A DNA stretch of 64,000 nt from IMG/VR virus record IMGVR_UViG_3300020578_000006, positions 1-64,000 of that record; one strand, given 5' to 3'. Under the pieces are notes generated by a model that saw only the letters and a list, made by a program, of their open reading frames with translations, was not told the origin of the DNA and did not search any database. Numbering within the stretch: the first letter of the stretch is position 1; every line of letters starts with the position of its first letter. Positions 7,854-56,200 of the stretch are shown here, piece by piece. This DNA comes from a virus. A program made the position numbers and the translations under genes.

Positions 7854-8089
7854 TTACTATGAATATACATATCTGTCCTTATTGCATATTCTTTATAATC
7901 AGCATAGTAAAATCCTCTATCCCCCCCATCTAGTATAATTGTTGGTCTATTCTTTATAAAAAAACACCATTGATCGGTAAACTCTTTACCGTGAAAATTT
8001 AATACATCTTCCTGTAAAACATAATCAGATGTTGTTTCAACTCCACCAATTCCTTTATAGTTTAATGTTCTTTTAGGACAAAATTTCAC
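7850..8089 (-). CDS. hypothetical protein (79 aa)
   Basis: Starts MKFCPKRTLNYKGIGG; aromatic-rich, ends IRTDMYIHSN. It overlaps the stop of 8086-8949 by four bases (ATGA), so it is probably co-translated with that tagged late protein. No family recognised. Confidence 0.55.
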   Translation of the reverse strand: MKFCPKRTLNYKGIGGVETTSDYVLQEDVLNFHGKEFTDQWCFFIKNRPTIILDGGDRGFYYADYKEYAIRTDMYIHSN

Positions 8090-12601: not shown

Positions 12602-12883
12602 ATGAAAGTGACCTTTACTCAGCCTGACAAAAGAGATAATAAAATACCTTTTTCCGAATTAAAGGTAGGAGATGTTTTCACCATAGCTGACCCAAAAATG
12701 TCTAAGGTCACATGCTATATGAAGACGAAGGTTAGCAAATATTATACAGCTTCTAATCTAGATTGTATTAACCTAGAAACTGGAGAGATATCTATATTTT
12801 CAGATACTAAAAAAGAAGTTATATCTGTAGATCAGTTATTTGTTTACAAAGTAAATGCTGAGATTAATGTAAAGGTTGATTAA
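12602..12883 (+). CDS. hypothetical protein (93 aa)
   Basis: Beta-rich soluble protein with a SELKVGDVFTIADP segment, typical of small phage SH3-like barrels. Divergent from 11857-12546 and overlapping the convergent prepilin-like gene by four bases. A TATAAAT-like element lies just upstream. Unknown function. Confidence 0.6.
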   Translation: MKVTFTQPDKRDNKIPFSELKVGDVFTIADPKMSKVTCYMKTKVSKYYTASNLDCINLETGEISIFSDTKKEVISVDQLFVYKVNAEINVKVD

Positions 12884-13614
12884 GGTTCTAAGGGATACCA
12901 TTTCTTAGAATCGGTTAGTTCGTGATATTCTAGAATACTAACACTACCGTTTAAGAACGCAACAATAGCATTATCGTTATATCTGGCTGAAATATAGCCC
13001 GTACTCTTTGGGTTACTTCTTGGATCATATTTGGATTTACTTTTAGGTATATCAACATAATAAAACCCTTCAAACCTCTCCCCCACGGCCATACTTCTTG
13101 ATGAAACAAACGCTATCGTTTGAGAAGGCTTTGTAACCTGGACTAATGATGAAGCAATTCTATTCTGATATTGCTTACCTTCATAATCATTTCCACCTAG
13201 ATAGATATTAAGACCAAAAGAAGGAAGCACACTTACAAGGTATGTCTGTGTTAAGCCTCCTTGTTTTTTGATATATCTGGCCGCCTCATTCACTAAAGTA
13301 CATCCATAAAAATCGTAGTTAAAGTAAGGAGCAAGTCTCCAAGGCCATCGGTGTGATTCATGACTCTCTTCACCGCCAATTTGCTTACCATTTATATCAA
13401 ACGCGGTACCATTAAGATCATAACTCTTCATTAGTAAATTATTATTATCACTACTATAAAGATTGTATGCGGTTATTAAATTTTTTATAGCACTAACCTC
13501 TTTTGCCTTTTTACCGGTATCATGCGCTTTACTCAAAACTGGAAGCCCAACACCTAGTAATATACCTATTACGCAAACTACTACCAAGCTCTCAACAAGC
13601 GTGAAAGCTTTCAT
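12880..13614 (-). CDS. prepilin-like protein with N-terminal methylation motif and C-terminal box resembling H-X9-DG
   Basis: 244 residues. The start MKAFTLVESLVVVCVIGILLG is a type IV prepilin/pseudopilin signal in which phenylalanine follows an Ala instead of the usual Gly cleavage residue, with the key Glu at +5. The C-terminal AIVAFLNGSVSIL resembles the box of prepilin-type proteins from Planctomycetota, Verrucomicrobiota and Lentisphaerota. Its ATG is coupled (ATGA) to the PEP-CTERM gene upstream. A bacterial-surface type protein carried by a phage; probably host-derived. Confidence 0.8.
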   Translation of the reverse strand: MKAFTLVESLVVVCVIGILLGVGLPVLSKAHDTGKKAKEVSAIKNLITAYNLYSSDNNNLLMKSYDLNGTAFDINGKQIGGEESHESHRWPWRLAPYFNYDFYGCTLVNEAARYIKKQGGLTQTYLVSVLPSFGLNIYLGGNDYEGKQYQNRIASSLVQVTKPSQTIAFVSSRSMAVGERFEGFYYVDIPKSKSKYDPRSNPKSTGYISARYNDNAIVAFLNGSVSILEYHELTDSKKWYPLEP

Positions 13615-14327
13615 TTTCTATTTAAAAACCATGTAATAAAAACAACCCCCATAGCGGCTATTAAAAATTCAAATGTAGATGGCTCAGGTATAATTGATAC
13701 ATTAGGGTGAAGAATTGGATCAGAATATTCTAATGAATAAAATTGTGCCGTTGTACCTTCAACGCTAGAATATGTTCCAATAAGCCCTATACCAAAATTA
13801 GTAAGAGGATCTATTTTCCATTGATTAAGAGCCTGGGTAATATTAAAGGATATCTCTCCAGATTGAATAAAAGTTACACTATCTAGAGTAGGTCTGTTTA
13901 AGAGATTAGTATTATACCAACTAAGAGGATCAGAAGCAAATTCTATATTTGAAAAACTATCTCCTAAGGCCACAGCCTTAATTGTAAAGGTCACTCCCGA
14001 AGTCAAATAAGAATATGTTGGGGGGCCTTGATAACCTGGTACCACAGTTCCAGGTACTCTGAATCTTTGAAGATTGAGTTTAAGTAGACCGGTACTGCCT
14101 AGCTCATAATTTGTAATATCATTAACCTCAACACCTCCCACATTGAAATGATATTGATAAGGGCTGCCAGCCTGTTGATTGTTAACACCTACAAAGAGAG
14201 GGGTTCTGGTTGAATTAAATGTTCCGTAATAAAGATAGTAATCAGCATCAGTAGATACGGCCAAGTTAACAGCATGACAGGCTGCACTAAGAAGCAGTGA
14301 TAATATAATTGTAATTAGTTTGTTCAT
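13611..14327 (-). CDS. secreted protein with PEP-CTERM sorting signal
   Basis: 238 residues. Signal peptide at 1-19 (MNKLITIILSLLLSAACHA), a beta-rich body, and a C-terminal PEP-CTERM tripartite signal: PEPSTFEF, a hydrophobic helix (LIAAMGVVFITWF) and basic LNRK. PEP-CTERM proteins are processed by exosortase in EPS-producing bacteria, so a host exosortase is implied. Body function unknown. Forms an operon with the prepilin-like gene and lies seven bases after the initiator-like tRNA. Confidence 0.85.
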   Translation of the reverse strand: MNKLITIILSLLLSAACHAVNLAVSTDADYYLYYGTFNSTRTPLFVGVNNQQAGSPYQYHFNVGGVEVNDITNYELGSTGLLKLNLQRFRVPGTVVPGYQGPPTYSYLTSGVTFTIKAVALGDSFSNIEFASDPLSWYNTNLLNRPTLDSVTFIQSGEISFNITQALNQWKIDPLTNFGIGLIGTYSSVEGTTAQFYSLEYSDPILHPNVSIIPEPSTFEFLIAAMGVVFITWFLNRK

Positions 14328-14333
14328 AAGATT

Positions 14334-14405
14334 TCGCGGGGGTCGGATTTGAACCGACGATCTCCTGGTTATGAGCCAGACGAGTTACCACTTCTCCACC
14401 CCACA
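14334..14405 (-). tRNA. initiator-like tRNA-fMet (CAU)
   Basis: Anticodon loop CTCATAA; acceptor TGTGGGG/CCCCGCG with a weak T-G first pair; T-arm GTCGG-TTCAAAT-CCGAC. Much of the body (GGGGTGGAG, CTCGTC, GGCTCATAACC, TCGTCGGTTCAAATCCG) matches bacterial initiator tRNA nearly base for base. The anticodon stem has two of the three initiator G-C pairs (T-A replaces one). CCA is not encoded. Confidence 0.85.
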
Positions 14406-15635: not shown

Positions 15636-16286
15636 ATGGTTTCTTACAGACAGTTTATTAAAGAGGCTAATTTCAATGTTAATACAGGACGGGGAATTGT
15701 AGGGCCTGGAACAAAGAGAGGTACAAATCAGCAGCAACCGTATTACCCAGTACAAACATCATCACAAATACAAAGAACACAGCAACCACGTGCTTACTCA
15801 CCTACACAACAAGTTGCTCCGTCAGTGACTCAGCGTAATATAGCAACGACATCTTATCCTGTTCAAACTACCGCACCAACACAGCCTCAACAAACCGCTA
15901 CTGGGAAGAATGGACAGCTAACACAAAAGGAATTAAAACTTGTAGGCAAGTATAACGCTGGTCCATCTGGTAAGAGGCAATGGTATACTAATAATGCATT
16001 TTTAAGTCCGAGAGCTGCAGATGCTTTTCTTGCCGCGCAACAAGCCTACGGAAGACCGTTTCCAATTAATAGTGCTTATAGAAATTTAGAACATCAAAGA
16101 GGTCTATCTGGTGAGGGGCATAAAGTAGTAGGAAGAGCTGGAACCTCTAGACATGGTTTAGGAATGGCAATAGATATTCAGCCTAATACACCTCATTATA
16201 ACTGGTTCAAACAGAATGGGCCGCAATTTGGATGGCATTTTGCCTCTATACCTGGTGATCCTTATCATTTTGAGTTTAGAGGTTGA
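15636..16286 (+). CDS. M15-family peptidase (VanY-like) with N-terminal tag
   Basis: 216 residues: N-terminus MVSYRQFIKEANF resembles the T4 capsid-targeting tag; a Gln/Thr/Pro-rich linker (about 25-95); then a D-Ala-D-Ala carboxypeptidase-type M15 domain with SAYRN, TSRHGLGMAIDI (His and Asp zinc ligands) and the terminal HFEFRG (His ligand). The family cuts peptide bridges in peptidoglycan. The tag and late promoter favour a virion-carried or late lytic enzyme (inference). Confidence 0.85.
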   Translation: MVSYRQFIKEANFNVNTGRGIVGPGTKRGTNQQQPYYPVQTSSQIQRTQQPRAYSPTQQVAPSVTQRNIATTSYPVQTTAPTQPQQTATGKNGQLTQKELKLVGKYNAGPSGKRQWYTNNAFLSPRAADAFLAAQQAYGRPFPINSAYRNLEHQRGLSGEGHKVVGRAGTSRHGLGMAIDIQPNTPHYNWFKQNGPQFGWHFASIPGDPYHFEFRG

Positions 16287-16304: not shown

Positions 16305-16312
16305 TATAAATA
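16305..16312 (+). promoter_or_regulatory. T4-type late promoter (TATAAATA)
   Basis: Exact TATAAATA followed by GTGA and the ATG of 16317-16622. Classic T4 late-promoter sequence. Confidence 0.65.
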
Positions 16313-16316: not shown

Positions 16317-16622
16317 ATGAATAAACTACTTGCCTCACTTGTAGTTGGCCTTGCGCTAACTACTATCGCGTTGGCCGATTCTGGTACCTGTACTCCCTGT
16401 GATGACAGTGATTGGACAGTCGCGCGTGGCTTTGCCGCAGTGGGCGACCTTCTGGTAGTTAGACCTCTGGGAACCGCCGCGACAATAGGTGGTTTTGGTC
16501 TATTTGCAGTTGCGTCCCCATTTGCTGCTATGGCTGATGCAACAGATGAAGTATTTGATACGCTCGTTCAAGAGCCTGGCGAATATACGTTTGTTCGCGA
16601 TCTTGGCGATTTCAGTCGCTAA
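16317..16622 (+). CDS. exported protein, unusually GC-rich (101 aa)
   Basis: Signal peptide MNKLLASLVVGLALTTIALA with an ALA cleavage site, a CTPCDD Cys pair, then RPLGTAA, a hydrophobic stretch (GFGLFAVASPFAAMA) and EPGEYTFVRDLGDF. This architecture, with VRPLG-A-T and (E/D)-YTF-R-LG, is familiar from uncharacterised exported proteins of Proteobacteria. Base composition is clearly richer in G+C than the neighbours, suggesting recent transfer. Late promoter directly upstream. Function unknown. Confidence 0.7.
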   Translation: MNKLLASLVVGLALTTIALADSGTCTPCDDSDWTVARGFAAVGDLLVVRPLGTAATIGGFGLFAVASPFAAMADATDEVFDTLVQEPGEYTFVRDLGDFSR

Positions 16623-16854: not shown

Positions 16855-17034
16855 TTATTTAGTCTGATTTTGTAAAGATAATAATTCTTTTAAAGCATCT
16901 TCCAAGCTAACTTCTTTTAAATTATCCTTAATTTCTGGTTTAGGAGGTTCCACTATTTGACATAACTGCTGAAGCACTGAAGCTTCTAGGTTTTTAATTG
17001 TATTATCTTTTGTTATTGTAACGCCGGCTATCAC
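16855..17034 (-). CDS. hypothetical protein (59 aa, GTG start)
   Basis: GTG at 17032-17034 overlaps the TGA of 17031-17426. Helical product (MIAGVTITKDNTIKNLEASV; EDALKELLSLQNQ). The late-type element for the next gene sits over its stop. Unknown, probably co-expressed with the tagged late protein upstream. Confidence 0.5.
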   Translation of the reverse strand: MIAGVTITKDNTIKNLEASVLQQLCQIVEPPKPEIKDNLKEVSLEDALKELLSLQNQTK

Positions 17035-17426
17035 ACACCGGCTACTGAAGGTACAATAGATTCAGCATTTTCATTACGACCGCGAGCGGAAAGATGGGTA
17101 TCTAATGCTTTACGGAGAATTTGTTCACACTCTTCAGTAGAATAAGATCTGTTTAAATCTCCTAGAAGCTTATTTGAAGCAACATCAATTCTTGTACCGC
17201 GAGCTTTTGATTCTTCTTGCTCGCTTTGCTGCTTCTTAGCAATTGCATCTGTTACTTTTCTATTTAAATTGGCTAGATATCTATCAGATGGTGTTCCTTT
17301 TTTACCATCGCGATCGATATCTTCTTTAGGGTTAGTAGACCTAGATCTCTTCTTCTCTTCTACTACTTCTGAGGAAGGTCTGCTCTTAACAAAATTTTCA
17401 AATATTAAGCGGCTATCGTTGTCCAT
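17031..17426 (-). CDS. tagged late protein (131 aa)
   Basis: N-terminal tag MDNDSRLIFENFV is shared with 7470, 8086 and 17430. It is followed by an EF-hand-like NPKEDIDRDGKKGTPSDRYL segment, seen in several T4-like phage proteins, and a basic helical C-terminus. AATAAATA (17431-17438) stands four bases before ATG. Likely virion-associated or scaffold-like (inference). Confidence 0.6.
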   Translation of the reverse strand: MDNDSRLIFENFVKSRPSSEVVEEKKRSRSTNPKEDIDRDGKKGTPSDRYLANLNRKVTDAIAKKQQSEQEESKARGTRIDVASNKLLGDLNRSYSTEECEQILRKALDTHLSARGRNENAESIVPSVAGV

Positions 17427-17429
17427 ATA

Positions 17430-18284
17430 TTATTTATTTGCCGATGGCTTATTTATTTGATAAGCCCCGGGGGTTCCTTTTGTGGTCAATCTAGGGCCTT
17501 TTGTTGTCATAACATAGTATGGGCCTTCGGATGGAGCCGGTGTTCCATCTGGTAGTGTTGCTTTTCTTACTGGCTCTTCTTTTGTTGGATCAACTCCCGG
17601 CGCAACAGTCTCGTCACCTGTAGCTGGGGCTGCTGGTGCAACAGTATCATCTTGAACTGGAGCACCCTTAATTGTAGCTCCATCCCCTGTATCAGATACC
17701 GCGCCTGTAACTGATGCCCCAGCAGGCGCAGCATCTGAGGTTTTGGGTATTGCTAATCTAGCTGGGGTATTGGGTATTGCTATTCTAGAATTGGTATCTG
17801 CAACCCCTCCTATAATACTAGCCGGGGTTTGTTCACCTCCACCAGAGGGGCCTAGATTTTTAATTACATTATTAACCATAGAAGCAATTTGTGGTGCTAA
17901 AGATAATGATTTAGATAGCATACTCAATTGTTGTGTTGTTGGTGATGCTAGTGAAATAATATTCAAAATGTAAGAAGGAAGGTTTTGTATTCCTGACTGT
18001 AAGGCTTGCAGCGAACCAGGTACATTATTTTTTTGTAAAATATCAGCTGTATCTTTAGCTTTAGTAAATGAATCGGAAATATTTTTTAATATTTTTTTTA
18101 CATCATCAATAGACAGACTCACGTTTTGTGGTGTTGTGACACCCGCAGCACCAGGCACTGCTTGAGGTAGAGGGGTACTAGATGTTGTAACGCTCTTATT
18201 AGGGCTTACAACAGCACCTGTCTCGTTAGCTTCTTTACAAACCTTTCTGTAGGCTTCAAATATTAAGCCAATATCATTTCTCAC
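17430..18284 (-). CDS. tagged Pro/Ala/Thr-rich late protein (284 aa)
   Basis: GTG start; tag MRNDIGLIFEAYRKV at the N-terminus, a helical region (about 55-145), then a low-complexity Ala/Pro/Thr/Val/Gly region (about 145-240). Four bases before GTG is an exact TATAAATA. The tag plus late promoter suggests packaging with the capsid; function unknown. Confidence 0.6.
   Translation of the reverse strand: MRNDIGLIFEAYRKVCKEANETGAVVSPNKSVTTSSTPLPQAVPGAAGVTTPQNVSLSIDDVKKILKNISDSFTKAKDTADILQKNNVPGSLQALQSGIQNLPSYILNIISLASPTTQQLSMLSKSLSLAPQIASMVNNVIKNLGPSGGGEQTPASIIGGVADTNSRIAIPNTPARLAIPKTSDAAPAGASVTGAVSDTGDGATIKGAPVQDDTVAPAAPATGDETVAPGVDPTKEEPVRKATLPDGTPAPSEGPYYVMTTKGPRLTTKGTPGAYQINKPSANK
17431..17438 (-). 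promoter_or_regulatory. T4-type late promoter (AATAAATA)
   Basis: Minus-strand AATAAATA four bases before the ATG of 17031-17426, inside the 3' end of the upstream gene. Confidence 0.5.
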
Positions 18285-18288: not shown

Positions 18289-18296
18289 TATTTATA
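18289..18296 (-). promoter_or_regulatory. T4-type late promoter (TATAAATA)
   Basis: Exact minus-strand TATAAATA, four bases (ATAG) before the GTG of 17430-18284. Confidence 0.65.
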
Positions 18297-18953: not shown

Positions 18954-19259
18954 TTACTCAGAACGATGCTTGCCGTTCAAAGCGATGGCTCGCTTCAGCA
19001 CATCAGCGTTAATGGGCTTGTTATAGTCCGTAACGTTGAGGGCTTTGCGGGTCTCTTCCACCGACTGACCAGCACGCAGGAGCTTGAGAGCGCCGCGGCT
19101 GATGTAGTGGCTGAGATAAGCCTCGACGGAACCAGCGTTGATGGACTTACGTTCCAAATACGCACGATTCGTCAGACGGCTCTTGCCTGTGATCAAGCAA
19201 GTCAACCGAGGGGTCACCTCGCGCTCGCTCGACGTCCTAACCGTAGTAGCAGTAGTCAT
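18954..19259 (-). CDS. hypothetical protein with strong Shine-Dalgarno (101 aa)
   Basis: Start at ATG 19257-19259 because an AGGAGG (19267-19272 complement) lies seven bases upstream, the only strong Shine-Dalgarno I noticed here. The product has CLITGKSRLTNRAYLERK and YISRGALKLLRAGQSVEE, resembling small phage proteins with a (C/T)-x-(V/I)-TG-x-SR-x-(S/T)N motif. G+C is higher than the neighbours. It has its own promoter with a real leader, plus a terminator: a self-contained, perhaps recently acquired, highly expressed unit. Confidence 0.65.
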   Translation of the reverse strand: MTTATTVRTSSEREVTPRLTCLITGKSRLTNRAYLERKSINAGSVEAYLSHYISRGALKLLRAGQSVEETRKALNVTDYNKPINADVLKRAIALNGKHRSE

Positions 19260-19266: not shown

Positions 19267-19272
19267 CCTCCT
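19267..19272 (-). promoter_or_regulatory. strong Shine-Dalgarno (AGGAGG)
   Basis: Minus-strand AAAGGAGGT upstream of ATG 19259. Notable because most genes in the window have no such site. It decides the start codon over an in-frame ATG further upstream. Confidence 0.75.
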
Positions 19273-26053: not shown

Positions 26054-29000
26054 TTATCTCACAAATATATTTACAAATTGTATAGCATGACATTCAGTGC
26101 CTGCCTGAAACCCGGGGCCACATATAGATGCACCAGTACTAAACCCTGTCCAACCTTGATGACCACTCCAATTCCACGTAAACATTCTGTTTGAGTCATT
26201 ACTTAATCCGTTAGTTTGGGTATCTGGCCAAAGTGCATTATTATAGGTATAGATTGGCGATCCACCTGCCCATAAATTTGGGTATCTAGAATATGTTAGT
26301 GGTAAGATAGCTATTGTTGTTGAGTCTGGAGCACGACCAACTGGATTATTAAAACTAAATCCACAGTTATTTGGATTGTTTAGTACAGATTGATCTTTTT
26401 CCGATAAAATTGGACAAAAATCAGCCCATCCAAATACGTATCTACTCCCCGGACTTCTTAGATAAAAACTATCATTAAGCTGTACTCGGTTAATAATCAT
26501 TTCCATATTATTCCAAGTATCTTCACCTTTAATACCGTGAATTACACCCGAAGGTAAATAACGAGGAACAAAATTACTAGTTACAGCAGCAAGGTTGGCT
26601 TGTCTCAAGCCTTCTTTATAGTTTCCGCCCCCAGCATTTGCAAACCATTGTGTGTGCCATTTTACTGTAACGCTGCTCCCGGCGCCCTCTCTTCCAACAG
26701 CAACTAACACCCATCCACCTCCAAAACTTGTCATGTCACAATAAATTGACGTGGGCTCTCCGTCAACCCATAAGAAATAATCTCCACTTGGAGCCCCTGG
26801 TCTAGCTGCTAAAATTTCCCTTGCATTATTTGCAGGATTTTCAATAGTACCAAGAAGTCCTCTGCTCTTATTATTAGTATACTTATACCTTACAATCACT
26901 ATACCCTTTCCACCGTTTCCACCCGTACTATAAGCGTGCGTCCCTCCACCGCCACCACCGCCTGTATTTGCTGCACCATTTCCCCCCCGTATACTAGATC
27001 CACTGTACCCGGCCTCACCAGAACTATCCCACATCCACCTCCAGTTAGAGTTAGGGCTTGAGTAATTTATCTGACTGCTTCCGCTTTGTCCACCTGCTCC
27101 ACCCTGGCTACCATAACTATCATCATACCTACTCCCTCCACCGCCTCCGCCCATTCCTGCAGGCCCAGATCCCGGTCCAGTATAGTTTGCCGCTCCTCCT
27201 CCACCTCCAAAACATTTCTCAATTCCTAGAATATAAGAATAATACCCATCCCCCCCTATACCAGACTGAATACTCGCTCGACCATTTGCAAGTGAATTTC
27301 CATCAGTGGTAGGAGAATTAAAAGATGCTCCCCCACCAGAACCTCCATAATAATCTACTGTACCTGCAGAAGCCCCTCCAGAAGTACCCTGACCGGCAAT
27401 ATTTTTACCCCCATATCTTATACCCACTACATTATGGGTGGCAGAGGCCCCTCCCCCGGAACCACCTCTAGTTGGATTTGGACCAATATATCTTTCCCCG
27501 CTTGTCCCGGTAGATCTATAATGCCCGCTTTGAGCGCCGCCACCCCCTCTTGCCTGTATAATTTGTTGATTAGAATTTATAAATTGCCATGTACCAGGGG
27601 TTAGAAACTCGTGAATTGTATATTGAACACCCCCTATAACTCTTTGATATATCCTATCACCACCGTGTGCACGCTGTACACCCTGATATCTCACTACAAC
27701 AATACCAGAACCACCAAATCCTCCTCTATTATTTGAGTTATAATGTGCACTTCCTCCACCACCACCTCCGGTGTTTTCCCCTGCATCACCTCCGGGTGTA
27801 TTACCACCATCTCCCCCACCTGGACTACCAACATTATATGCAGAGCCACCACCCTGGCCGCGCAAACCGCCCCCAGAGCCCCCACCTCCTCCGCCTATAC
27901 CACCGTTTCCTGATTCTCTTGAATGTCCAGCGCCGCCTCCTCCTCCGGCCCAATAATAATTATCACCTGTTATGTTATTTAAGATGCCAGGGCCCCCATC
28001 TGATCTAGCTGTGGAATCAACGCCTTGACCGCCTGCACCTCCTCCTCCACCAGAATAATACTGAGGTCCACCACGACCACCTCTAAATCCTTGACCTGCG
28101 GTCCCAGCGCCTCCATCTCTAAAAGAAGCACTACCATCACTGTACCCAGAAGCCCCTCCACCAGATCCTCCGGCACATCCTGCTGGGCCAGGATTATACT
28201 GGTAATATGAACTACCTCCCCGGCCACCCCCTATAGCAGTAAAAGTAGCAAATTGTGAGTTGCCCCCGTTACCAGCGGCAATATTAAACTGATGGGTAGA
28301 ACTTTGTTGGAATGTACCGCCTGCAGGTGCACCAGCACCCCCTGCTCCTACTACAACAGTATACGATTGACCAGCTATAATCGGTAATGTACCAGATAAT
28401 ACTCCACCGCCTCCGCCTCCACCACCCATATCCATACCTCCACCGCCACCACCTGCTACAACCAGATAGTCTACGCTAGTTACATTAGTTTGACCAGCAG
28501 ACAGAGGGGTTGTAAGATAGAGAAAAGAATCACCCCCAACACTACCTGTAGGAGGAGGGCCGTTATAAGGGCCAGGTGAACCGGCTCCACCGGCTCCTAC
28601 AACTACTGTACAATTACCTGTTAAAACAGTAGCACATTGATTTTCAATAACTCCACCGCCTCCGCCTCCACCACCCATATCCATACCTCCACCACCTCCA
28701 CCTGCTACCACTGTATACCAAATTTTATTTCCTCTAGAAGGATCAGTACCTAATTGTGTGATATTAAAAGTACCTGAATTTTCAAATACATGTACTCTAT
28801 TATCTCCAATATCATATATAACATCACCCCCGGTGGCAATCATTCCTTGAGGGAAAGTAATTCCTGATGTTATTGTCAATCTACTTCTATTAGGTAGTTC
28901 TTCTACTGTACACTCCCCTTGAATGGTTCTATTTCTAGCTGTTGCTCCATCTAAATTATCTCCATAACCATTTACCCACCAATTAGTTGTCATAAATTGA

Positions 29001-29566
29001 TGTTGATTACTACCACCATACCTTCTCGCCTGAAGACCTATTCTACCATTTGTAGTTCCCCAGCTTGGTACTATTCTTTCAAAATGCCAGGTTTTTTCAT
29101 CATACAAATCAGAGTTTGAAAACTTACAAATTTCAGTATTATTAGCATAAAATATCCAATGAGAGATAGTATGGGAGTTATAATAACCGTGTCCTATTTT
29201 TGCAGTAAATCTTAAATAACTATTCACAGAGGTAGGTGTAAAATCTACATACGCACCTGCAAACCAATCAAAACTATTTGTTAGATAGTAAGCACCGCCT
29301 GTATAATAAGAAATGACTCTATTATTACAGAAATTTAAATCTTCAGAGATGGCCAAGCTTCCAGTACTATCATAAATTAAAGGTCTGATATTGCCTTGTG
29401 TATCTAAATTTTGTACTGATTGTGGGTTAATACTTAAATTTGCAAATTTACTATTTGTTAGCGCTTTGTCCGCAATTTTTAACCCAGTAACAGATAGATT
29501 AGTAAATGCATTATTTGCAATAGCATTCACATCAACATTAGAATTTACTATTTTTGTTAATGGCAT
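26054..29566 (-). CDS. large Gly-rich tail adhesin with fibrinogen-like C-terminus
   Basis: 1170 residues. N-terminal ~220-residue fibre module is paralogous to the proteins at 29568 and 30224. Residues about 270-900 hold Gly-rich domains with repeated VVAGGGGGGMDMGGGG and VVVGAGGAG motifs, as in polyglycine-helix adhesins of T-even-like phages. The last ~250 residues look like a fibrinogen-C/intelectin-type domain (GDYFLWVDGEPTSIYCDMTS, FGGGWVLVAVG). Gly-rich tips and fibrinogen-like folds bind glycans, so this is the best receptor-binding candidate. Late-type CTAAATAA precedes ATG. Confidence 0.85.
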   Translation of the reverse strand: MPLTKIVNSNVDVNAIANNAFTNLSVTGLKIADKALTNSKFANLSINPQSVQNLDTQGNIRPLIYDSTGSLAISEDLNFCNNRVISYYTGGAYYLTNSFDWFAGAYVDFTPTSVNSYLRFTAKIGHGYYNSHTISHWIFYANNTEICKFSNSDLYDEKTWHFERIVPSWGTTNGRIGLQARRYGGSNQHQFMTTNWWVNGYGDNLDGATARNRTIQGECTVEELPNRSRLTITSGITFPQGMIATGGDVIYDIGDNRVHVFENSGTFNITQLGTDPSRGNKIWYTVVAGGGGGGMDMGGGGGGGGVIENQCATVLTGNCTVVVGAGGAGSPGPYNGPPPTGSVGGDSFLYLTTPLSAGQTNVTSVDYLVVAGGGGGGMDMGGGGGGGGVLSGTLPIIAGQSYTVVVGAGGAGAPAGGTFQQSSTHQFNIAAGNGGNSQFATFTAIGGGRGGSSYYQYNPGPAGCAGGSGGGASGYSDGSASFRDGGAGTAGQGFRGGRGGPQYYSGGGGGAGGQGVDSTARSDGGPGILNNITGDNYYWAGGGGGAGHSRESGNGGIGGGGGGSGGGLRGQGGGSAYNVGSPGGGDGGNTPGGDAGENTGGGGGGSAHYNSNNRGGFGGSGIVVVRYQGVQRAHGGDRIYQRVIGGVQYTIHEFLTPGTWQFINSNQQIIQARGGGGAQSGHYRSTGTSGERYIGPNPTRGGSGGGASATHNVVGIRYGGKNIAGQGTSGGASAGTVDYYGGSGGGASFNSPTTDGNSLANGRASIQSGIGGDGYYSYILGIEKCFGGGGGAANYTGPGSGPAGMGGGGGGSRYDDSYGSQGGAGGQSGSSQINYSSPNSNWRWMWDSSGEAGYSGSSIRGGNGAANTGGGGGGGTHAYSTGGNGGKGIVIVRYKYTNNKSRGLLGTIENPANNAREILAARPGAPSGDYFLWVDGEPTSIYCDMTSFGGGWVLVAVGREGAGSSVTVKWHTQWFANAGGGNYKEGLRQANLAAVTSNFVPRYLPSGVIHGIKGEDTWNNMEMIINRVQLNDSFYLRSPGSRYVFGWADFCPILSEKDQSVLNNPNNCGFSFNNPVGRAPDSTTIAILPLTYSRYPNLWAGGSPIYTYNNALWPDTQTNGLSNDSNRMFTWNWSGHQGWTGFSTGASICGPGFQAGTECHAIQFVNIFVR

Positions 29567-29567: not shown

Positions 29568-30224
29568 TTAGTTATTTAGAAACTCCTCTAACACTAATTG
29601 TGTTACAGTGTTTCCTGAAGTCCCTCCATCGCCATTCCAATATCTAGTCCCGTGAAACGCTCCATAATAATTTCCAGAATAATATCTGCACTGAATACCT
29701 ATTCTTCCTGATGTAGTTCCCCAGCTCGGATACATACGTTCATAATGAAGTCTTTTTTCTCCATATTGCGCCCCAAGTGTCCATTGATCTCTTAATTGAT
29801 TATTCCAATAAAATAGTTGATGTTGAATTCCGTAACTACCATCATTCCAATACCAACTATAATTTGCTGCCCACCTAATTATACTATCCGCTCTAAGGGG
29901 GGTATAATCAATAAATAAACCAGGTACCCAGGTAAAAGAAGCAGGGGCCCCAAACGGTATATTATAGGTTTGTATGACTCTATTAATACAGTAGGCCTTA
30001 TTATTGCTATACTGAAGAGTTCCTGTAGAACTAAATACTAATTGCTGAAAAGAAGATGTAGAGGATAATATCTTTCCTAATGTTAGAGTATTATCTGCGA
30101 TTAAATTACCAGTAATACTATTAAGAGATAGCTTACTTGTAGTTATCGATAAATTATTAACCTGACTATCGTTAAAAGTATTTGCAGTTATTAACGAGGG
30201 GGATGATATTCTAGTTAATGCCAT
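29568..30224 (-). CDS. tail fibre protein, paralogue 2 (218 aa)
   Basis: Stand-alone copy of the ~220-residue module at the N-terminus of the large adhesin: MALTRISSPSLI start, N-x-(C)-INRVIQ, WVPGLFIDYTPL, HYERMYPSWGTTSGRIGIQ, ending QLVLEEFLN. Probably a shorter fibre or spike subunit. Ends one base before the adhesin's start region. Confidence 0.75.
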   Translation of the reverse strand: MALTRISSPSLITANTFNDSQVNNLSITTSKLSLNSITGNLIADNTLTLGKILSSTSSFQQLVFSSTGTLQYSNNKAYCINRVIQTYNIPFGAPASFTWVPGLFIDYTPLRADSIIRWAANYSWYWNDGSYGIQHQLFYWNNQLRDQWTLGAQYGEKRLHYERMYPSWGTTSGRIGIQCRYYSGNYYGAFHGTRYWNGDGGTSGNTVTQLVLEEFLNN

Positions 30225-30926: not shown

Positions 30927-30934
30927 TATAAATA
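30927..30934 (+). promoter_or_regulatory. T4-type late promoter (TATAAATA)
   Basis: Exact TATAAATA, five bases before ATG 30940. The leftward gene 30224-30907 has a TTAAATAA within the same 32-base gap, making a divergent late promoter pair. Confidence 0.65.
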
Positions 30935-30939: not shown

Positions 30940-31458
30940 ATGCCTATTTTCGGTATTAATAACAATAATATATATGCAGACAATACATCTCAAGAGTTTA
31001 GAATATCTGTAAACAATGTAGATGCATGGCGTTATAATATTAATAACAGTACTATACGGCAAATTTATCGTCCGATTTTACAGATAAATAGTACACTTGC
31101 AGGCGATACAAACCCTGGTCAGAATTATTTACACACTTGGACGCCACAAAGTTATCAAGGACCTGCTTCAACTGTAGCAACAGCTAATTACTTTACTGCA
31201 CCTCAAACCGGGATATATAAAGCAAATATTACAGCATTATGTCGGCACAATCATCATCATTGGATTATGAGAAATGGATCTGCACCAGCTAGTTTTTCAC
31301 ATTATGTCTATCAAGGGACCGGTAACTATATGTCTATTGGCGCAAGTATGATTTTTTCTTTAAATGCAGGAGATACAATATCGTTTGGTGGTAATAGAAA
31401 TGATGGTAATATTTGGGGAGGTGGATGGACAATAGGCTCAATAGAAAGGATGGGATAA
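30940..31458 (+). CDS. C1q-like tail protein 1 (172 aa)
   Basis: Jelly-roll signature of C1q/TNF-like domains: NYFTAPQTGIYKANITAL, HHHHWIMRNG-like loop, SMIFSLNAGDTISFGG. The N-terminus (MPIFGINNNNIYADN) is short. C1q-like trimers form receptor-binding heads of phage fibres and bacterial surface proteins. First of three tandem relatives. Confidence 0.75.
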   Translation: MPIFGINNNNIYADNTSQEFRISVNNVDAWRYNINNSTIRQIYRPILQINSTLAGDTNPGQNYLHTWTPQSYQGPASTVATANYFTAPQTGIYKANITALCRHNHHHWIMRNGSAPASFSHYVYQGTGNYMSIGASMIFSLNAGDTISFGGNRNDGNIWGGGWTIGSIERMG

Positions 31459-38107: not shown

Positions 38108-38455
38108 TTATTCTACTATTTCTATATAGTCAAATCTTTTTGCCTCAGATGCTTTTTGGTAACCTGCATCATTTGCAAAGATAATTTCTAATTTCTGCGG
38201 TGTATAAAAAGTAGGAAGCGTAAAAGACATAGCATTATTAGTATGTGTTACATAATCAAAAATAGGATAAGCACTAAAAGGCGGATTACCTGCACTTGTA
38301 CTTTTTACCCCGGTATAAAAATTATATGATTTTTGCTTACCATCAAATTTATTAGAACTTAAATATAAGCCAGCATCAGTTTTGTAGCTAAACATATCAC
38401 CATAAAGATAGATTTGTTTTCCAGAGGTACCTACTTTTACTGTAATATTAGGCAT
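38108..38455 (-). CDS. hypothetical structural protein (115 aa)
   Basis: Beta-rich (MPNITVKVGTSGKQIYLYG; MSFTLPTFYTPQKLEIIFAND). One-base overlap with the gp15-like gene upstream. Probably a virion component by context. Confidence 0.6.
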   Translation of the reverse strand: MPNITVKVGTSGKQIYLYGDMFSYKTDAGLYLSSNKFDGKQKSYNFYTGVKSTSAGNPPFSAYPIFDYVTHTNNAMSFTLPTFYTPQKLEIIFANDAGYQKASEAKRFDYIEIVE

Positions 38456-39282
38456 TATGGTTCTCCCAGAGGGGTATATAACTTTACTTCTGATATTTGA
38501 GGTCGCCCTGAAACTGTAACAGTTTCTGTATTAGAAAATGCAGAAAGTGCAGGGTCAGTATTGGATATAACTTGTGTCCTAAGAAATGTGTAGCTACCAT
38601 AATCAAGAGATACCCCAGTGCTAACAGCTGTAAGCTGGGTATCAATTTTAAATATATTTTTGACCGGGGCCTGAGGATCAGGAAACATCCAGCCTTTAAT
38701 AGTAAATGCAGTATCTGCAATTATTTGAGCTTTTTGATTACCATTAATATCAGTAGGGTAATTTAAGTTTATAGATCCATTCCATAAAACTTCGCTGCGA
38801 ATTTCTTGAGTATATGGAAGATTAAATTCTTTTGGAACTGTCCAGCTTAATATAATATAAGGATTATTAAAAGGAACAAAATTACTTAAAATTTGATCCA
38901 TGTCTGATTGATATCTAGTAATAATACTCATCTTTACATCAATGTTAATTGGGACAGGGGCCTTATAGAAAAACGTTACATTCCCCGGACTATCTTCAAC
39001 TGGATTGCTTGGAGCAAAGAACCCGGCATTTTTGTTAAAAACTCTATTATTATCTCGGGAAATACTACCTATTGTTACACTAACGACAGGTAGAGATAAA
39101 TTTTGACCAGGGTTAATTAAATCGTGAAGTACTCTCTGTTTTGGTGCATAAATGTATCTTACCTGTTGAGAGGCCTCAGCCACTCTATTCTTATTATATC
39201 TTTTAATAACAACATCATCAAATGCTGCTAAAAACTGAATTAATAGATCCTTGATCTCAAAATAATGAGTAGGAAGCTTCAT
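38455..39282 (-). CDS. 15: tail sheath stabiliser/completion protein, T4 gp15-like
   Basis: 275 residues, close to T4 gp15 (272). Matching blocks in order: VVIKRYN, RYIYAPKQRVLHDL, PVVSVTIGSISRDNNR, FFYKAPVPINIDVKMSIITRYQSDMDQILSNFVPF (the TRYxxDMxQIxxxxxPxF core of gp15) and FTIKGWMFP. gp15 caps the tail tube/sheath and joins tail to neck. Late-type CTAAATAAG precedes ATG. Confidence 0.7.
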   Translation of the reverse strand: MKLPTHYFEIKDLLIQFLAAFDDVVIKRYNKNRVAEASQQVRYIYAPKQRVLHDLINPGQNLSLPVVSVTIGSISRDNNRVFNKNAGFFAPSNPVEDSPGNVTFFYKAPVPINIDVKMSIITRYQSDMDQILSNFVPFNNPYIILSWTVPKEFNLPYTQEIRSEVLWNGSINLNYPTDINGNQKAQIIADTAFTIKGWMFPDPQAPVKNIFKIDTQLTAVSTGVSLDYGSYTFLRTQVISNTDPALSAFSNTETVTVSGRPQISEVKLYTPLGEP

Positions 39283-39316: not shown

Positions 39317-39520
39317 TCAATAATACTTCCACTTATTATGACTAATCTTTGATGCTAACTTTCTTTTGGCTGATGGTTTTAAATAAGATCTTAAAAGCTT
39401 TACTTCTTCAAGAATACCACATCTTTTTACGGCATTACTAAACTGTTTTAGTTTTTTGTCAAAATATAACTTATTGGAAGACTTCTTCTTATCGAGAACG
39501 ACTTCACAGTTAATGATCAT
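39317..39520 (-). CDS. rpsU: ribosomal protein bS21, phage-encoded
   Basis: 67 residues with the bS21 pattern: FDKKLKQFSNAVKRCGILEEVKLLRSYLKPSAKRKLASK aligns with the bacterial (F-x-x-A-L-x-x-F-K-R-x-x-E-x-(A/S)-G-x-L-x-E-x-R-...-Y-x-K-P-x-x-x-R-x-x-K) core. bS21 sits on the 30S platform near the anti-Shine-Dalgarno and affects initiation. It is the ribosomal protein most often reported in phages. Located in a late structural region. Confidence 0.85.
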   Translation of the reverse strand: MIINCEVVLDKKKSSNKLYFDKKLKQFSNAVKRCGILEEVKLLRSYLKPSAKRKLASKISHNKWKYY

Positions 39521-39534
39521 AATCTATTTACTTA

Positions 39535-39882
39535 TTAAATCTGATCTTCAACTACTACTATCTCTGCTTTAGTATTAAAGTATTTTCCAGGCTTTTTGGG
39601 TATAAGAAACTTTGCATACTCTAAAATTTTTCTATCTTCATTACACAAGCTGTCAACAGAATAATCAAAAATTATTTTTTTTGTACCTATACAAAAATTG
39701 TATGGATAAGGAACTTCAAAAACTTTCTTAGTTTGATTAACCATTATGGTAAAAATTAAGTAAAAGTCTTTTATACAAAAAAGTATAAGTCTACCAGTCT
39801 TTATAGATTTACCGTTTACAGAAAAAGATATCTTCTGTTGTAACAAAGTGTTGATGCTTTTCTCTAATTTCTCTACGTACAT
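39535..39882 (-). CDS. hypothetical protein (115 aa)
   Basis: Start at ATG 39880-39882 (MYVEKLEKSINTLLQ) immediately after the upstream stop. Mixed strand/helix, basic; RKILEYAKFLIPKKPGKYF near the end. Unknown. Confidence 0.55.
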   Translation of the reverse strand: MYVEKLEKSINTLLQQKISFSVNGKSIKTGRLILFCIKDFYLIFTIMVNQTKKVFEVPYPYNFCIGTKKIIFDYSVDSLCNEDRKILEYAKFLIPKKPGKYFNTKAEIVVVEDQI

Positions 39883-39883: not shown

Positions 39884-40261
39884 TTAAGAATCCATATAAG
39901 CAATCTTTTGAGGAGTTGTCATTCTTGCTAAATTTTCTCTAAAGTATTTCCAAAATGCTGGACCTGCAGGTATACTGGTAATTAAATCACAACTATCGCA
40001 ATTTACACACCTATAATCCTGCATAAAAAGATCCCACACAATGACAAGATTTTTCTGATCTGGACTATATCTTGTACCTTTAACTGCAGGTTTATAATTA
40101 AGAGTTACTCTTCCATCTACACTGTTAAGAACAGCCTGTGCATTAGTACATAACATTCTTCTTGTCATAGGTTTACCAGGCCGGGGGCGCCTGCGGGCAA
40201 ACTTTATCTCACAGACGTTGTTTTGAAGTACGCTTTTCAGGCTTGCTAGAGATACTAACAT
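39884..40261 (-). CDS. DUF2693-like SH3-barrel protein
   Basis: Start at ATG 40259-40261 (MLVSLASLKSVLQNN) preferred over one at 40303, which overlaps the upstream gene by 95 bases. Pattern CEIKFARRRPRPGKPMTRRMLCTN and NLVIVWDLFMQDYRCVN, then KYFRENLARMTTPQKIAYMDS, matches a protein common in T4-like marine phages with an SH3-like barrel (K-x-x-G-x-x-R-x-M-x-CT). Function unknown, possibly nucleic-acid binding. Confidence 0.6.
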   Translation of the reverse strand: MLVSLASLKSVLQNNVCEIKFARRRPRPGKPMTRRMLCTNAQAVLNSVDGRVTLNYKPAVKGTRYSPDQKNLVIVWDLFMQDYRCVNCDSCDLITSIPAGPAFWKYFRENLARMTTPQKIAYMDS

Positions 40262-40664
40262 CTTCTTTTCTGGGTTGTACGACACCGAATATTCTTTGTT
40301 CATTAAGAAATATCCCGTGGCTTAGTTTTCCATAATTTACTACTTCAATATTAGCAATAGGAACTCCCATATTATTGGGAAAACATACATAATCACCTTC
40401 CTTTACTAACTTACAACTATCACCCCTCAATATAACCTTACCAATGCGCCAGGCATTTGTATCTGCATTAACAGGAACAACTATACCATTTCTTACAATA
40501 GTGTTCGATGTACCGCCTTCATCAACAAATTCTACTAGTAAAATATCATCTAGTAGTTTTGAAAGATTATAACCTACGAAAACACTATTAAGTGAATTTC
40601 TTGAATGTGAGCTAAGATCTATTAAACTTTTCTGTACTGGTCCAAGTTGATCTACGTTTGCCAT
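40209..40664 (-). CDS. possible GroES-like co-chaperonin (gp31-like), 151 aa
   Basis: The middle reads DDILLVEFVDEGG, GIVVPVN, WRIGKVILRGDSCKLVKEGDYVCFPNN, resembling the GroES beta-barrel (valine/leucine-rich start, mobile loop, GEV-x-x-xG, KxGDxVxF). T4 gp31 replaces GroES for capsid folding. The match is by pattern only; a different beta-barrel is possible. Preceded by a CATAAGTG-like element. Confidence 0.4.
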   Translation of the reverse strand: MANVDQLGPVQKSLIDLSSHSRNSLNSVFVGYNLSKLLDDILLVEFVDEGGTSNTIVRNGIVVPVNADTNAWRIGKVILRGDSCKLVKEGDYVCFPNNMGVPIANIEVVNYGKLSHGIFLNEQRIFGVVQPRKEDVSISSKPEKRTSKQRL

Positions 40665-42651: not shown

Positions 42652-44466
42652 ATGCCTGAGTACGGAAATTCTGATTCTGGACGTGAATCGACATTTGGTC
42701 GTTCGTTAATGAGTTATATTAACTCTAAGCTTCCTTATCAGAGCTATACATCTATTGATACTATAAGTAAACTAAATCCCAAATTTAAAGTATTTCAAGA
42801 TACAGGCAGTAAGAGAACAGAAGCACTAGCCAGACAAAGCATTAGCAGTAATACTGAATATAATAGCTTAGACCCATCCGGCATTATTGGTCTAGATAAC
42901 AATTTCACCCAATACATGTATGCAAATGTGCAACATGACAAAGTATCTAGATTAAGAGACTACAGAACAATGGCATCTTTTTCTGAAGTAGCCGATGCGC
43001 TAGATGAAATATGTGATGATGCAATAAACAAAGATTCAAAAGGCAAAGTAGTTCATGCTAAGTTTCTAGATCTAGATTTAAATGACAAAGACACTACAGT
43101 TCTAGAAGAAGAGTTTCAAAAATATATTCAACATTTTGATTTGTCCCATAAAGGGTGGGAATATTTTAGAACACTACTAGTTGATGGTGAGTTATACTTT
43201 GAACATATTATCCACAAGCAATACGAGGATGAAGGAATATTAGGAGTTATAACTGTACCTAACGAATTTGTTGATCCTATTTTTGGCAATGTACAGAATA
43301 TGATGATTAAGGGCTTCTTGTTAAGAAAGCCAGTTTTTGACAAAAACAACCCTACCAAGATATTGGAATATAAGCTTGTTCCAATGGACAAAAATCAAAT
43401 AACTTATATTAACTCTGGTATATGGAATGAGAACAAGACAATAAGACTTCCGTTCATAGAGAACGCAAGAAGAGCATATAGGCAGATTAGTCTATTAGAA
43501 GATGCGGTCGTAATTTATAGGTTGGCACGAGCACCTGCGCGTTTAATCTTCAATGTAGATGTTGGCAATATGCCTGCACCAAAAGCAGAAGCGTATATGC
43601 GTAAATTAATGAACCAATATTGGTCATCTAAGAGTTTTGATGCGCAGCAAGGCGGAGGGGCTCTTAAAAAATATAACCCACAAAGTATTTTAGATAATTT
43701 CTGGTTTGCAAAGCGCGCTGGTTCTGAAGGTACAGATGTAAGACAATTAGAAGGTGCAAATCAAGCTTGGGGGCTAGAGGAAATGAACTATTTCTTAAAG
43801 AAACTTTATAAGAGCTTAAAGGTACCAGTATCCAGACTTAATGCTGAAACTGGCTACAAAGATGATATGAACATTCTTCGTGAGGAATTAAAATTTGCTA
43901 AATTTATTGTTAGAATGCAGCAGCAATTTGCTGAAGGCTTAAAGAATGGTTTTGTAACGCATTTAAAGCTTAGAAAGCTTTGGGAAAAATTTGATCTTAA
44001 GGAAACTAACATTGATATTGAGTTTAATGTACCAATTAACTTCTTTGAGATGAGAGAGGCACAAAAACAGGAGATCAAATCAAAGACATTCGGTGACATA
44101 ATTCAATCAGCTGATAATATTAGTAAGACATATGCATTAAAGAAATACATGGATTGGACAGATGTAGAAATTCTTGCAAATAGAGAATTTATGAGAAAAG
44201 ATATGGCATTTAGCTGGGAATTAGAGCAAATTAAAGCTGGAGGCCCTAATTGGAAAGAAAATGCTTTAGCGGGTGTTGCTCCAGCAGAAGGTGGTGAAGT
44301 TGGTGGTGCAAGTGTTGGTGGTGGAGCCGCAAGTACATTACCGCCTGCTTTTGGACCTACCCCGGCTGGTGGACCAGAAGGTGGAGTTCCTGCTGAAGGC
44401 GGGCCTGCTCCAGCAGAGGGTGCACCGGGCCCTGCGGCCGGTGGGGCACCACCCCCTACCGGTTAA
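42652..44466 (+). CDS. 20: portal vertex protein, T4 gp20-like
   Basis: 604 residues, comparable to T4 gp20 (524) plus a C-terminal Gly/Pro/Ala-rich tail (about 535-604). Portal hallmarks: YRTMASFSEVADALDEICDDA, EYFRTLLVDGELYFEHI, VPNEFVDP, RAPARLIFNVDVGNMP, RKLMNQYW, FWFAKRAGSEGTDVRQLEG and VSRLNAETG. It forms the dodecameric DNA gate and assembly initiator. The low-complexity tail is unusual; it may be a disordered internal extension. Late promoter upstream. Confidence 0.95.
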   Translation: MPEYGNSDSGRESTFGRSLMSYINSKLPYQSYTSIDTISKLNPKFKVFQDTGSKRTEALARQSISSNTEYNSLDPSGIIGLDNNFTQYMYANVQHDKVSRLRDYRTMASFSEVADALDEICDDAINKDSKGKVVHAKFLDLDLNDKDTTVLEEEFQKYIQHFDLSHKGWEYFRTLLVDGELYFEHIIHKQYEDEGILGVITVPNEFVDPIFGNVQNMMIKGFLLRKPVFDKNNPTKILEYKLVPMDKNQITYINSGIWNENKTIRLPFIENARRAYRQISLLEDAVVIYRLARAPARLIFNVDVGNMPAPKAEAYMRKLMNQYWSSKSFDAQQGGGALKKYNPQSILDNFWFAKRAGSEGTDVRQLEGANQAWGLEEMNYFLKKLYKSLKVPVSRLNAETGYKDDMNILREELKFAKFIVRMQQQFAEGLKNGFVTHLKLRKLWEKFDLKETNIDIEFNVPINFFEMREAQKQEIKSKTFGDIIQSADNISKTYALKKYMDWTDVEILANREFMRKDMAFSWELEQIKAGGPNWKENALAGVAPAEGGEVGGASVGGGAASTLPPAFGPTPAGGPEGGVPAEGGPAPAEGAPGPAAGGAPPPTG

Positions 44467-54016: not shown

Positions 54017-54772
54017 ATGAGACCGCTAGTATTGATATTTACCTGTAAAAAATATATTTATAGGTGTAAAGATATACAAGAAACTTGGGGCCATGACCTT
54101 AAAAAAAATAATATAGATTACTTTTTTGTTAGTGGTGACAATCTCGATATAGAGCCATATCTAAATATAGATTTTAAAGAAAGCTATGAACAACTTCCAC
54201 AAAAAACATATATTACTTTTAATAGAGTAAAAGATTTAAATTATACCCACTTTATTAAGACAGATGACGATACATTTTTTAACGTTATTTCGTTTTTAAA
54301 AGAGCTAAACAGCTTATCAAATTTTGACTACATAGGTAAGTTTAACAAGCAAACTTCAGCTTCTTCAAAAATTCATTATTTTAAATGTAATGATTCTTTT
54401 AAAATTCCCAAACGTATATCTAAATTTTCTTATGCAGAGGGGGGTTTTTATATTTTAAGCAAAAAAGCACTAAACTATATTTGTGCTCAAAAAGAAAGTA
54501 CATTCGTCAATAAACCTACATCCTATAAGGGGGAGGATGTTTTAGTGGGTAGCATACTAAAGAATAAAGTAAAATCATTAGACATTAAAAATAACAACTC
54601 AGAAAAATTTAATATGGATCTAACTTTGTTCTCTCTTCACCCTGTAGATACTAGCATATTCAAACAGCTATACAAAAAAACCTTTAATTCTCAATTAAAA
54701 ATCTTACAACAAAATCAACTTCTAAACGAATATAATATTAGAGATAAATTCTTGGCAAATCTTAAACCTTGA
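54017..54772 (+). CDS. GT31-like glycosyltransferase (galactosyltransferase type)
   Basis: 251 residues: PLVLIFTCKKYIYRCKDIQETW, FIKTDDDTFFNV (DDD metal motif), FSYAEGGFYILSKKALNYI, YKGEDVLVGSIL (ED-x-x-x-G). These are signatures of beta-1,3-galactosyl/GlcNAc transferases (GT31), best known from eukaryotes and uncommon in bacteria. Compact compared with eukaryotic members. Acceptor unknown. Confidence 0.8.
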   Translation: MRPLVLIFTCKKYIYRCKDIQETWGHDLKKNNIDYFFVSGDNLDIEPYLNIDFKESYEQLPQKTYITFNRVKDLNYTHFIKTDDDTFFNVISFLKELNSLSNFDYIGKFNKQTSASSKIHYFKCNDSFKIPKRISKFSYAEGGFYILSKKALNYICAQKESTFVNKPTSYKGEDVLVGSILKNKVKSLDIKNNNSEKFNMDLTLFSLHPVDTSIFKQLYKKTFNSQLKILQQNQLLNEYNIRDKFLANLKP

Positions 54773-56150
54773 AAAAATCTTCCGGTAGCTTCTTACAAAA
54801 GCCTACTTTTTCATAAATTTCTTTACCCGCCGTATCCACGTCCACAAAAGGAAATTGCCGCTCTAACATATATTGTCTTTGAGGCTCTTTAAAATTATTG
54901 TATTTTGATTTATCTAGCCAAAGCGTTTCCTGCCATAACTTTTTATCGAGATAGGGATATCTTACCTCTATACCATGGACTCCACAGCAATACTCACAAG
55001 AATAAGGATTATTATCATCATAATCTATAACACCATTAATATCCTTAAGCCTTTTAAATAGCTTATTAATACCCTTAAAGCCAATGGCATCTCCACCTAA
55101 GCCGGATAAACAAATCTTATATCCTTCTTTTTTTGCTTTTAAAAAAATAAGACCGGCCCCTATAAACCCATAAGTCTCTCTACATACATATCCTACAAAT
55201 TTATTTTTATAAAAATCAAAGTGAGTATAGGCATAGTCCTCGACATTTTTAAAAATTTCATCTCGAGTAATCTCATGCATACTATCTGTAGGGTCGATAA
55301 GCTCTTTATTGACAATATTAGGTATTAAAATCTGTTTTCCTTCTATGATAGGTGGATTTTTAGTACTCAATCCATGGCGCCATAATAAAACATTAGACGG
55401 CTTTTCTAATACATTGACGGAATAAGCTTTAAAAGGAAGGTTATACTTTAACAGGGCGCTGCAAATAGCTCCGCTATCATACCCCTCACTAACACCCATA
55501 AAAATTTTTTTAGAAGCAGCAACAGTTCTTTTCAATATACTTTCATCAAACGCCATTTTCCAATCATCTAAATTAACTTTGTGTTCATTATCTAAATCAA
55601 AAGCTGTTATTTTATTTAATTTTATATTATCATTGCTTATATCGTATGTGTAATAATAATTTCCATATACGTGAAAAATTTCTTTATACCCTAATACAGA
55701 CAGTGCGCTCTTATATGAAGCTATACCTATTGTATTATTATGAATACTAAAAAATATAGGCTTAGTACCGAAAGTGTCAGAGCCAAAAATTAATTTCTTT
55801 TTTTTCTTATCTAACAAAACGATAGTAAATTCACCATCAAGATATTTAAAAAATTCTGCTCCATACTCTTCATATGCTTTGATTATACTTTCTCCATCTG
55901 ATAGACTATCAGGGGTAATGTCTTTATAATTATATATTTCACCATTGAAAACCATTATGATGTCACCACATTTAGAAATAAGTGGTTGAGGGGTCAAGTC
56001 TCCGGTAATACTTAGTAAATTATGTATAAAGTGAAAGCCGCTTTCGTTTTTATAAGAAGTTAAATCTGGTCCTCTAAATTTTTGATAGAAATTGGCGGCA
56101 TTTAAAACTTCTTCGGATGTATCTTTATTTGTGACCAAAAAACTACACAT
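54762..56150 (-). CDS. asparagine synthetase-like amidotransferase (AsnB family)
   Basis: 462 residues: Cys2 nucleophile (MCSFLV), FNGEIYNY, DTFGTKPIFF (class II glutaminase), then the synthetase half with an altered P-loop VSEGYDSGAI instead of SGGLDSS, and LSGLGGDAIGF. AsnB-type enzymes amidate carboxylates; members in secondary metabolism modify other acids. Shorter than E. coli AsnB (554 aa). The altered loop suggests another substrate or reduced activity. Confidence 0.85.
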   Translation of the reverse strand: MCSFLVTNKDTSEEVLNAANFYQKFRGPDLTSYKNESGFHFIHNLLSITGDLTPQPLISKCGDIIMVFNGEIYNYKDITPDSLSDGESIIKAYEEYGAEFFKYLDGEFTIVLLDKKKKKLIFGSDTFGTKPIFFSIHNNTIGIASYKSALSVLGYKEIFHVYGNYYYTYDISNDNIKLNKITAFDLDNEHKVNLDDWKMAFDESILKRTVAASKKIFMGVSEGYDSGAICSALLKYNLPFKAYSVNVLEKPSNVLLWRHGLSTKNPPIIEGKQILIPNIVNKELIDPTDSMHEITRDEIFKNVEDYAYTHFDFYKNKFVGYVCRETYGFIGAGLIFLKAKKEGYKICLSGLGGDAIGFKGINKLFKRLKDINGVIDYDDNNPYSCEYCCGVHGIEVRYPYLDKKLWQETLWLDKSKYNNFKEPQRQYMLERQFPFVDVDTAGKEIYEKVGFCKKLPEDFFKV

Positions 56151-56200
56151 AAAATATTTATACAGTAGTATAAAAAATAAAAACTACAGGTAAATAAAGC

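Follow-up and report, generated by a model that had tools for sequence, protein, structure and literature searches.

Does the bS21 gene carried by a lake virus serve to turn the ribosomes of the host towards viral messages? The original prediction was that this protein, encoded together with an initiator-like tRNA and with promoters implying leaderless messages, replaces host bS21 and biases initiation to phage mRNAs lacking a Shine-Dalgarno (SD) sequence. bS21 is the commonest ribosomal protein in phages, and a replacement and preference hypothesis for it was published in 2019–2022 (PMC6375957, PMC7162821, PMC9723584). The stretch of DNA analysed, the window, comprises bases 1–64000 of a virus record of 229,717 bp in total.

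The phage bS21 gene and its genome

The gene at 39317–39520 lies on the minus strand and its translation (MIINCEVVLDKKKSSNKLYFDKKLKQFSNAVKRCGILEEVKLLRSYLKPSAKRKLASKISHNKWKYY) has 67 aa, ending in the tail ...KISHNKWKYY. It matched the S21 family PF01165 with an E-value of 8.4e-7 (29.1 bits, cut-off 27), the alignment spanning profile positions 10–49 of 55, i.e. most of the length. Against the NCBIfam equivalog TIGR00030 it scored 24.2 bits, below the cut-off of 28.95. A profile built from the phage protein retrieved PDB bS21 chains as its matches, and judged by its sequence the protein is a divergent member of the bS21 family. The tblastn search against phage records gave zero matches, the profile scan of genome contigs found no close cellular relatives, and the identity to verrucomicrobial bS21 was only 31–35%. 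The AlphaFold model had low confidence (pLDDT 66), and Foldseek with this model produced no useful match.

Relatives of the protein were present in 37 viral contigs, with identity down to 56%. Residues C5, E6, F20, D21, G35, K48, P49 and S50 are invariant among them, as are K63, W64, K65 and Y67 of the tail. With dN/dS of 0.025/0.76 and 0.119/2.2 in comparisons with relatives, the gene is under strong purifying selection. The tail aromatics W64, Y66 and Y67 sit +15, +17 and +18 past the conserved proline, while the position of Tyr54 of Flavobacterium johnsoniae (+13) corresponds to residue 62, which is N and not aromatic (7jil alignment, offset 8).

The bS21 gene is co-oriented with both its neighbours, the adjoining tail sheath stabilizer (gp15-like; 38455–39282, minus; phrog_227, E 1.6e-17) and an upstream conserved hypothetical gene (39535–39882, minus), both found in the same place in 16 relatives. 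A GroES-like protein (40209–40664, minus; phrog_3188, E 8.6e-4, and synteny) belongs to the same conserved block, and the order GroES-like, hypothetical, hypothetical, bS21, gp15-like was kept in 16 of the 16 relatives checked. TerL is far off, at approximately 138.6–140.3 kb. The family match, the selection and the synteny together bear out the predicted homologue. A late-type box, AGTAAATA, is located 4 nt upstream of the bS21 ATG (39525–39532, minus). In the aligned upstream regions of 34 relatives, a [ATG]TAAATA-like or AT-rich box stands about 4–9 nt before the ATG in all, and no SD was present.

By its gene content the 229.7-kb lake virus is a T4-like phage. The genome includes terminase, sheath and DNA polymerase genes, a portal protein in T4-like structural context (42652–44466, plus; phrog_213, E 2.7e-95) and a homologue of the late sigma factor gp55 (genome 164060–164677; phrog_234, E 1.8e-24). 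Both elements of the T4-type late promoter set, this sigma factor and the box TATAAATA, are present. The N-terminus M(N/D)xDS(H/R)LIFEAY recurs in many proteins, in the window at 7470–7841, 8086–8949, 17031–17426 and 17430–18284 (all minus) and elsewhere in the genome at 153363, 168563, 215102, 215683 and 216450, and others begin with MKxFKQFLxE/MVSYRQFIKEA (window 15636–16286, plus; genome 170652, 171275 and 173248). By analogy with the T4 capsid-targeting sequence, which both N-termini resemble, these are candidates for head-packaged, injected proteins.

Late promoters, Shine-Dalgarno use and the initiator-type tRNA

In 48 of the 261 genes the late box TATAAATA, with at most one mismatch, stands 3–7 nt ahead of the start codon, against 8.5 in shuffled sequences. 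Its spacing peaks at 4, 5 and 6 nt (16, 14 and 14 genes, respectively), with about one gene per position elsewhere, and with a weight matrix 58 genes exceeded a score reached by 1.9 genes per other 5-nt window. On the plus strand, boxes lie at 30927–30934, 5 nt before the ATG of 30940–31458, and at 16305–16312, 4 nt before the ATG of 16317–16622; on the minus strand at 18289–18296, 4 nt before the GTG of 17430–18284, and at 56155–56162, 4 nt before the ATG of 54762–56150. With one mismatch allowed, also the 1170-aa gene 26054–29566 has a box 6 nt before its ATG (29573–29580, minus). In T4 the late box spans positions -13 to -6, counted from the start of the transcript (PMC1524935), and thus a spacer of about 5 nt would put +1 on the A of the ATG. 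From this spacing the late transcripts of the lake phage are predicted to be leaderless. The promoters implying leaderless messages are real as promoter anatomy, not as RNA. Start-abutting late boxes were absent from T4, the cyanophages and most other T4-like phages tested, and such promoters in a T4-like clade are undescribed in the literature searched. AR9 was ruled out as an earlier example of late phage genes without leaders, its leaders being 26–491 nt long.

SD use was measured as the share of genes with an anti-SD match of at least 4 nt in the SD zone, compared with an upstream control window, the start sites of all 20 phages compared being supplied by one home-made, simple gene caller. 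The share was 0.34 in the lake phage against 0.33 in the control, whereas the same pipeline gave 0.75 against 0.27 for T4; the predicted SD poverty could thus be both verified and quantified. The corresponding values were 0.41–0.60 against about 0.3 in the cyanophages and 0.65–0.77 against 0.18–0.32 in other phages carrying bS21. The upstream positions in the lake phage are enriched in A and not in G. The genes without a late box retain a weak remainder (matches of at least 5 nt 0.13 vs 0.07), and thus the genome is not wholly SD-free.

The AGGAGG at 19267–19272 (minus), which had been singled out as the only strong one, is a genuine SD (AAAGGAGGTAATATAATG) of a 101-aa gene with GC 0.55 (18954–19259, minus), but it is not single: a few other genes also have SDs of 6–7 nt, and AGGAGG or CCTCCT occurs 25 times in the window and 71 times in the genome. 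Several of the genes with an SD, the tail sheath gene among them, appear to be late. The SD of 18954–19259 is retained in contig L347 despite a synonymous change, and it is missing from the distant homologues in three contigs (L349–L351, 39%). No family match for the 101-aa protein was found in Pfam, PHROGs or phages. The gene is accompanied by a terminator-like hairpin.

The initiator-like tRNA, too, stood in part. ARAGORN, the sequence (GGTGGAG...GGTAACTCG...CTCATAA) and comparison with cellular initiators identified 14334–14405 (minus) as an initiator-derived tRNA-Met(CAU), with the CAU anticodon and A11:U24 present. However, its anticodon stem is UGG:CCA and not GGG:CCC, so that U29:A41 takes the place of one of the three G:C pairs (29–31:39–41). 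At 1:72, where bacterial initiators lack a strong pair, stands a U.G wobble (U1.G72). Two contigs of the same phage type carry the tRNA in identical form, and no initiator-type tRNA was found in the remaining related contigs, mostly fragments. Initiators with A29:U41 were present at three MAG loci (L151, L154 and L156), belonging to an Akkermansiaceae MAG, a Ca. Ectomicrobium MAG and a contig assigned to Myxococcales. This Myxococcales contig (L151, 146 kb) includes an array of 15 tRNAs with an initiator tRNA resembling that of the phage, and may be a phage contig within the bin. As a basis for a host call the initiator-tRNA pattern was set aside as suggestive only, with six mixed matches including the Akkermansiaceae MAG.

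Related phages and presumed hosts

The clade set consisted of 79 TerL relatives, of which the loci of 8 kb or more were pooled. The pooled 853 genes included 182 late boxes at 3–7 nt, against 22.9 in shuffles, and SD was at or near the control level across all identity bands, with the exception of one distant locus (L341, 47% TerL identity) that appears SD-using. Among 22 long contigs, a Pfam S21 match was present in G139 only; one bS21 search of these contigs lacked an internal positive control, while Pfam detected G139 and local HMM scans were concordant. The bS21 of G139 (199 kb) is of a distinct 60-aa type, 54% identical to Akkermansia-group bS21, and also this relative shows the leaderless-type, SD-free organisation. 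In G146 (222 kb), late boxes lie at 3–7 nt in 45 of the 260 genes, 25 of them at exactly 5 nt, the SD share is 0.21 against 0.29 in the control, and neither Pfam nor the clade profile nor a verrucomicrobial profile detected a bS21. Both G139 and G146 have about 1.6 kb of other DNA in the place of bS21, between gp15 and the hypothetical neighbour. The promoter geometry and the absence of SD are thus decoupled from this bS21, which the organisation does not need, and the start-codon habit, shared by relatives without the gene, probably reflects host ribosomes and not a takeover by bS21. One related phage (L352 1495–1677, the contig behind L290) carries an Akkermansia-like bS21 of the FETP type at another genome position; judged by sequence, it is an independent acquisition.

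Outside the clade, Melnitz, PA5oct and SCTP-2 all carry bS21 yet have ordinary SD and no start-abutting late boxes, so bS21 and leaderless promoters are not coupled in general; a general link between the two was accordingly discarded. The Pelagibacter phages HTVC008M and Mosig, also with bS21, are SD-using; in both, a minority of the late boxes sits at a spacing of exactly 5 nt from the ATG. The late genes concerned in these cultured pelagiphages (L033 and L057–L060 in HTVC008M; L061–L064 and L129–L130 in Mosig) are probably leaderless, which could be tested in culture.

The lake phage encodes PEP-CTERM proteins and pseudopilin-like proteins, both of which are frequent in Verrucomicrobiota. 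Two clusters pair the two kinds (window 12880–14327 and genome 207082–209863, both minus), which is unusual in a phage and a clue to the host. Also the 54% identity noted for the bS21 of G139 was counted toward a verrucomicrobial host, while one PEP-CTERM gene of the phage with a strong SD (genome 208298) is a counter-sign for an SD-blind one. SD scarcity has been reported in some Verrucomicrobiota, namely IMCC26134 and Akkermansia (PMC10783764). The SD share of the Akkermansia type was 0.18 against 0.31 in the control, with other SD-blind Verrucomicrobiota similar, and that of an SD-using control genome of the phylum 0.58 against 0.28; longer stretches confirmed SD absence in four genomes with aromatic tails and SD use in the control. 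In a sample of 40 Verrucomicrobiota genomes, the median SD excess was 0.08 in the 15 genomes with an aromatic residue at least +12 past the conserved proline of bS21 and 0.35 in the 25 without (p 3e-4, not corrected for kinship). From this correlation, an aromatic bS21 tail may be a marker of SD-blind ribosomes beyond Bacteroidota as well. Within the phylum (L187–L226), SD use is variable and tracks the aromatic tail. TANNNT boxes 6–9 nt before the ATG are in modest excess in the Akkermansia and G082 genomes, a hint that also these hosts may have short leaders or none. An SD-blind freshwater member of Verrucomicrobiota is, from these sequence comparisons, a plausible host. As the probable hosts themselves lack SD, its absence would not tell phage from host mRNA.

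Possible roles of bS21 and comparison with known systems

The explanation that we find reasonably probable as a whole is adaptation to an SD-blind host, most likely a freshwater member of Verrucomicrobiota, with leaderless late genes and a late bS21 that keeps the 30S subunits replete. The T4-like clade would have given up SD initiation, its gp55-type late promoters would have come to abut the start codon, and with promoters so placed the late mRNAs should be leaderless; this mode would be independent of bS21. The phage bS21 would be produced late from its own leaderless mRNA, escaping SD-based autoregulation, and would most likely fill new or bS21-depleted 30S subunits, which would thereby remain able to initiate without SD while structural proteins are made in a burst. 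We infer that the protein is incorporated into ribosomes and that its aromatic tail KWKYY would play the role of the aromatic bS21 tails of SD-blind bacteria. Flavobacterium ribosomes without bS21 prefer strong SD, and their initiation on SD-less mRNAs is reduced (PMC9976891), so a late phage bS21 would keep the subunits supplied with the protein and fit for initiation independent of SD. With or without displacement of host bS21, it would supply or protect the host's own mode and not introduce a new bias.

The predicted takeover, in which phage bS21 displaces the host protein, the ribosomes come to prefer SD-less or leaderless phage mRNAs and the phage initiator tRNA helps, has real parts, and replacement of host bS21 is possible: bS21 is exchangeable, and that of HTVC008M is taken up into E. 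coli ribosomes, with GFP synthesis falling to about 5% (PMC6375957). The initiator-type tRNA and the minority of start-abutting boxes in the bS21-carrying HTVC008M and Mosig agree with it. The causal bias nevertheless does not fit G146, Melnitz, PA5oct and SCTP-2 or the SD-less likely hosts; moreover, no IF3, S1 or deformylase was found in the phage, and the tRNA was seen in near-identical contigs only, most of the others being fragments. We therefore consider a takeover unlikely. The independence of G146 from bS21 fits as well with a protein that is extraribosomal or merely a matter of dosage, without effect on mRNA choice, and the phage protein is short and divergent enough to fail TIGR00030. 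Strong purifying selection and the invariant core and tail argue instead for a specific contact, ribosome incorporation has a precedent (PMC6375957), and this reading appears rather improbable.

A switch gated by bS21 would have early, bS21-short ribosomes translate the few strong-SD genes (18954–19259, genome 208298) until the phage bS21 made late closes the anti-SD, turns these genes off and favours leaderless late messages. The Flavobacterium behaviour described above is what such a switch would use, the bS21 gene has a late box and no SD, and the rare strong SD of 18954–19259 has been retained in L347. The distant homologues of this gene without SD, and the SD-bearing genes that look late, such as the tail sheath, speak against it, and we regard it as quite improbable. 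If true, it would mean a change of ribosome composition between infection phases in a T4-like clade. The clade offers natural contrasts, with the bS21 type of the lake phage (type A), a second bS21 type or none on a constant leaderless, SD-free background, and the takeover hypothesis is therefore testable by comparison.

bS21 and its proposed role were already known; the feature of note is the clade-wide presence of start-abutting late promoters, decoupled from bS21. T4 and the lake phage have the late sigma homologue and the box TATAAATA in common, but in T4 the late boxes are mostly 21–52 nt upstream and the genome is SD-using, whereas in the lake phage they are 4–6 nt upstream and SD is lacking. 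HTVC008M (Kyanoviridae) is likewise T4-like with bS21, and a few of its late boxes are spaced exactly 5 nt from the ATG; it differs in using SD (0.65 vs 0.29) and in its bS21, which has no aromatic tail and lies between CobS and Hsp20 genes. The huge phages of freshwater Bacteroidetes of Chen et al. 2022 (PMC9723584) are also lake myoviruses with one bS21 in late-gene context, an aromatic bS21 tail and SD-blind hosts, and the same replacement idea was put forward for them. Their bS21 is, however, situated amid TerL, MCP and portal genes on the opposite strand, not co-oriented beside gp15, its aromatic residue is at the Tyr54 position instead of +15/+17/+18, the hosts are Bacteroidetes, and late promoters abutting the start codon are a feature of the lake phage. 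In the anti-SD occlusion of Bacteroidota (Jha 2021; McNutt 2023, PMC9976891), translation is likewise SD-blind and the bS21 tail implicated, while in Verrucomicrobiota and their presumed phages the pattern is suggested by sequence correlation.
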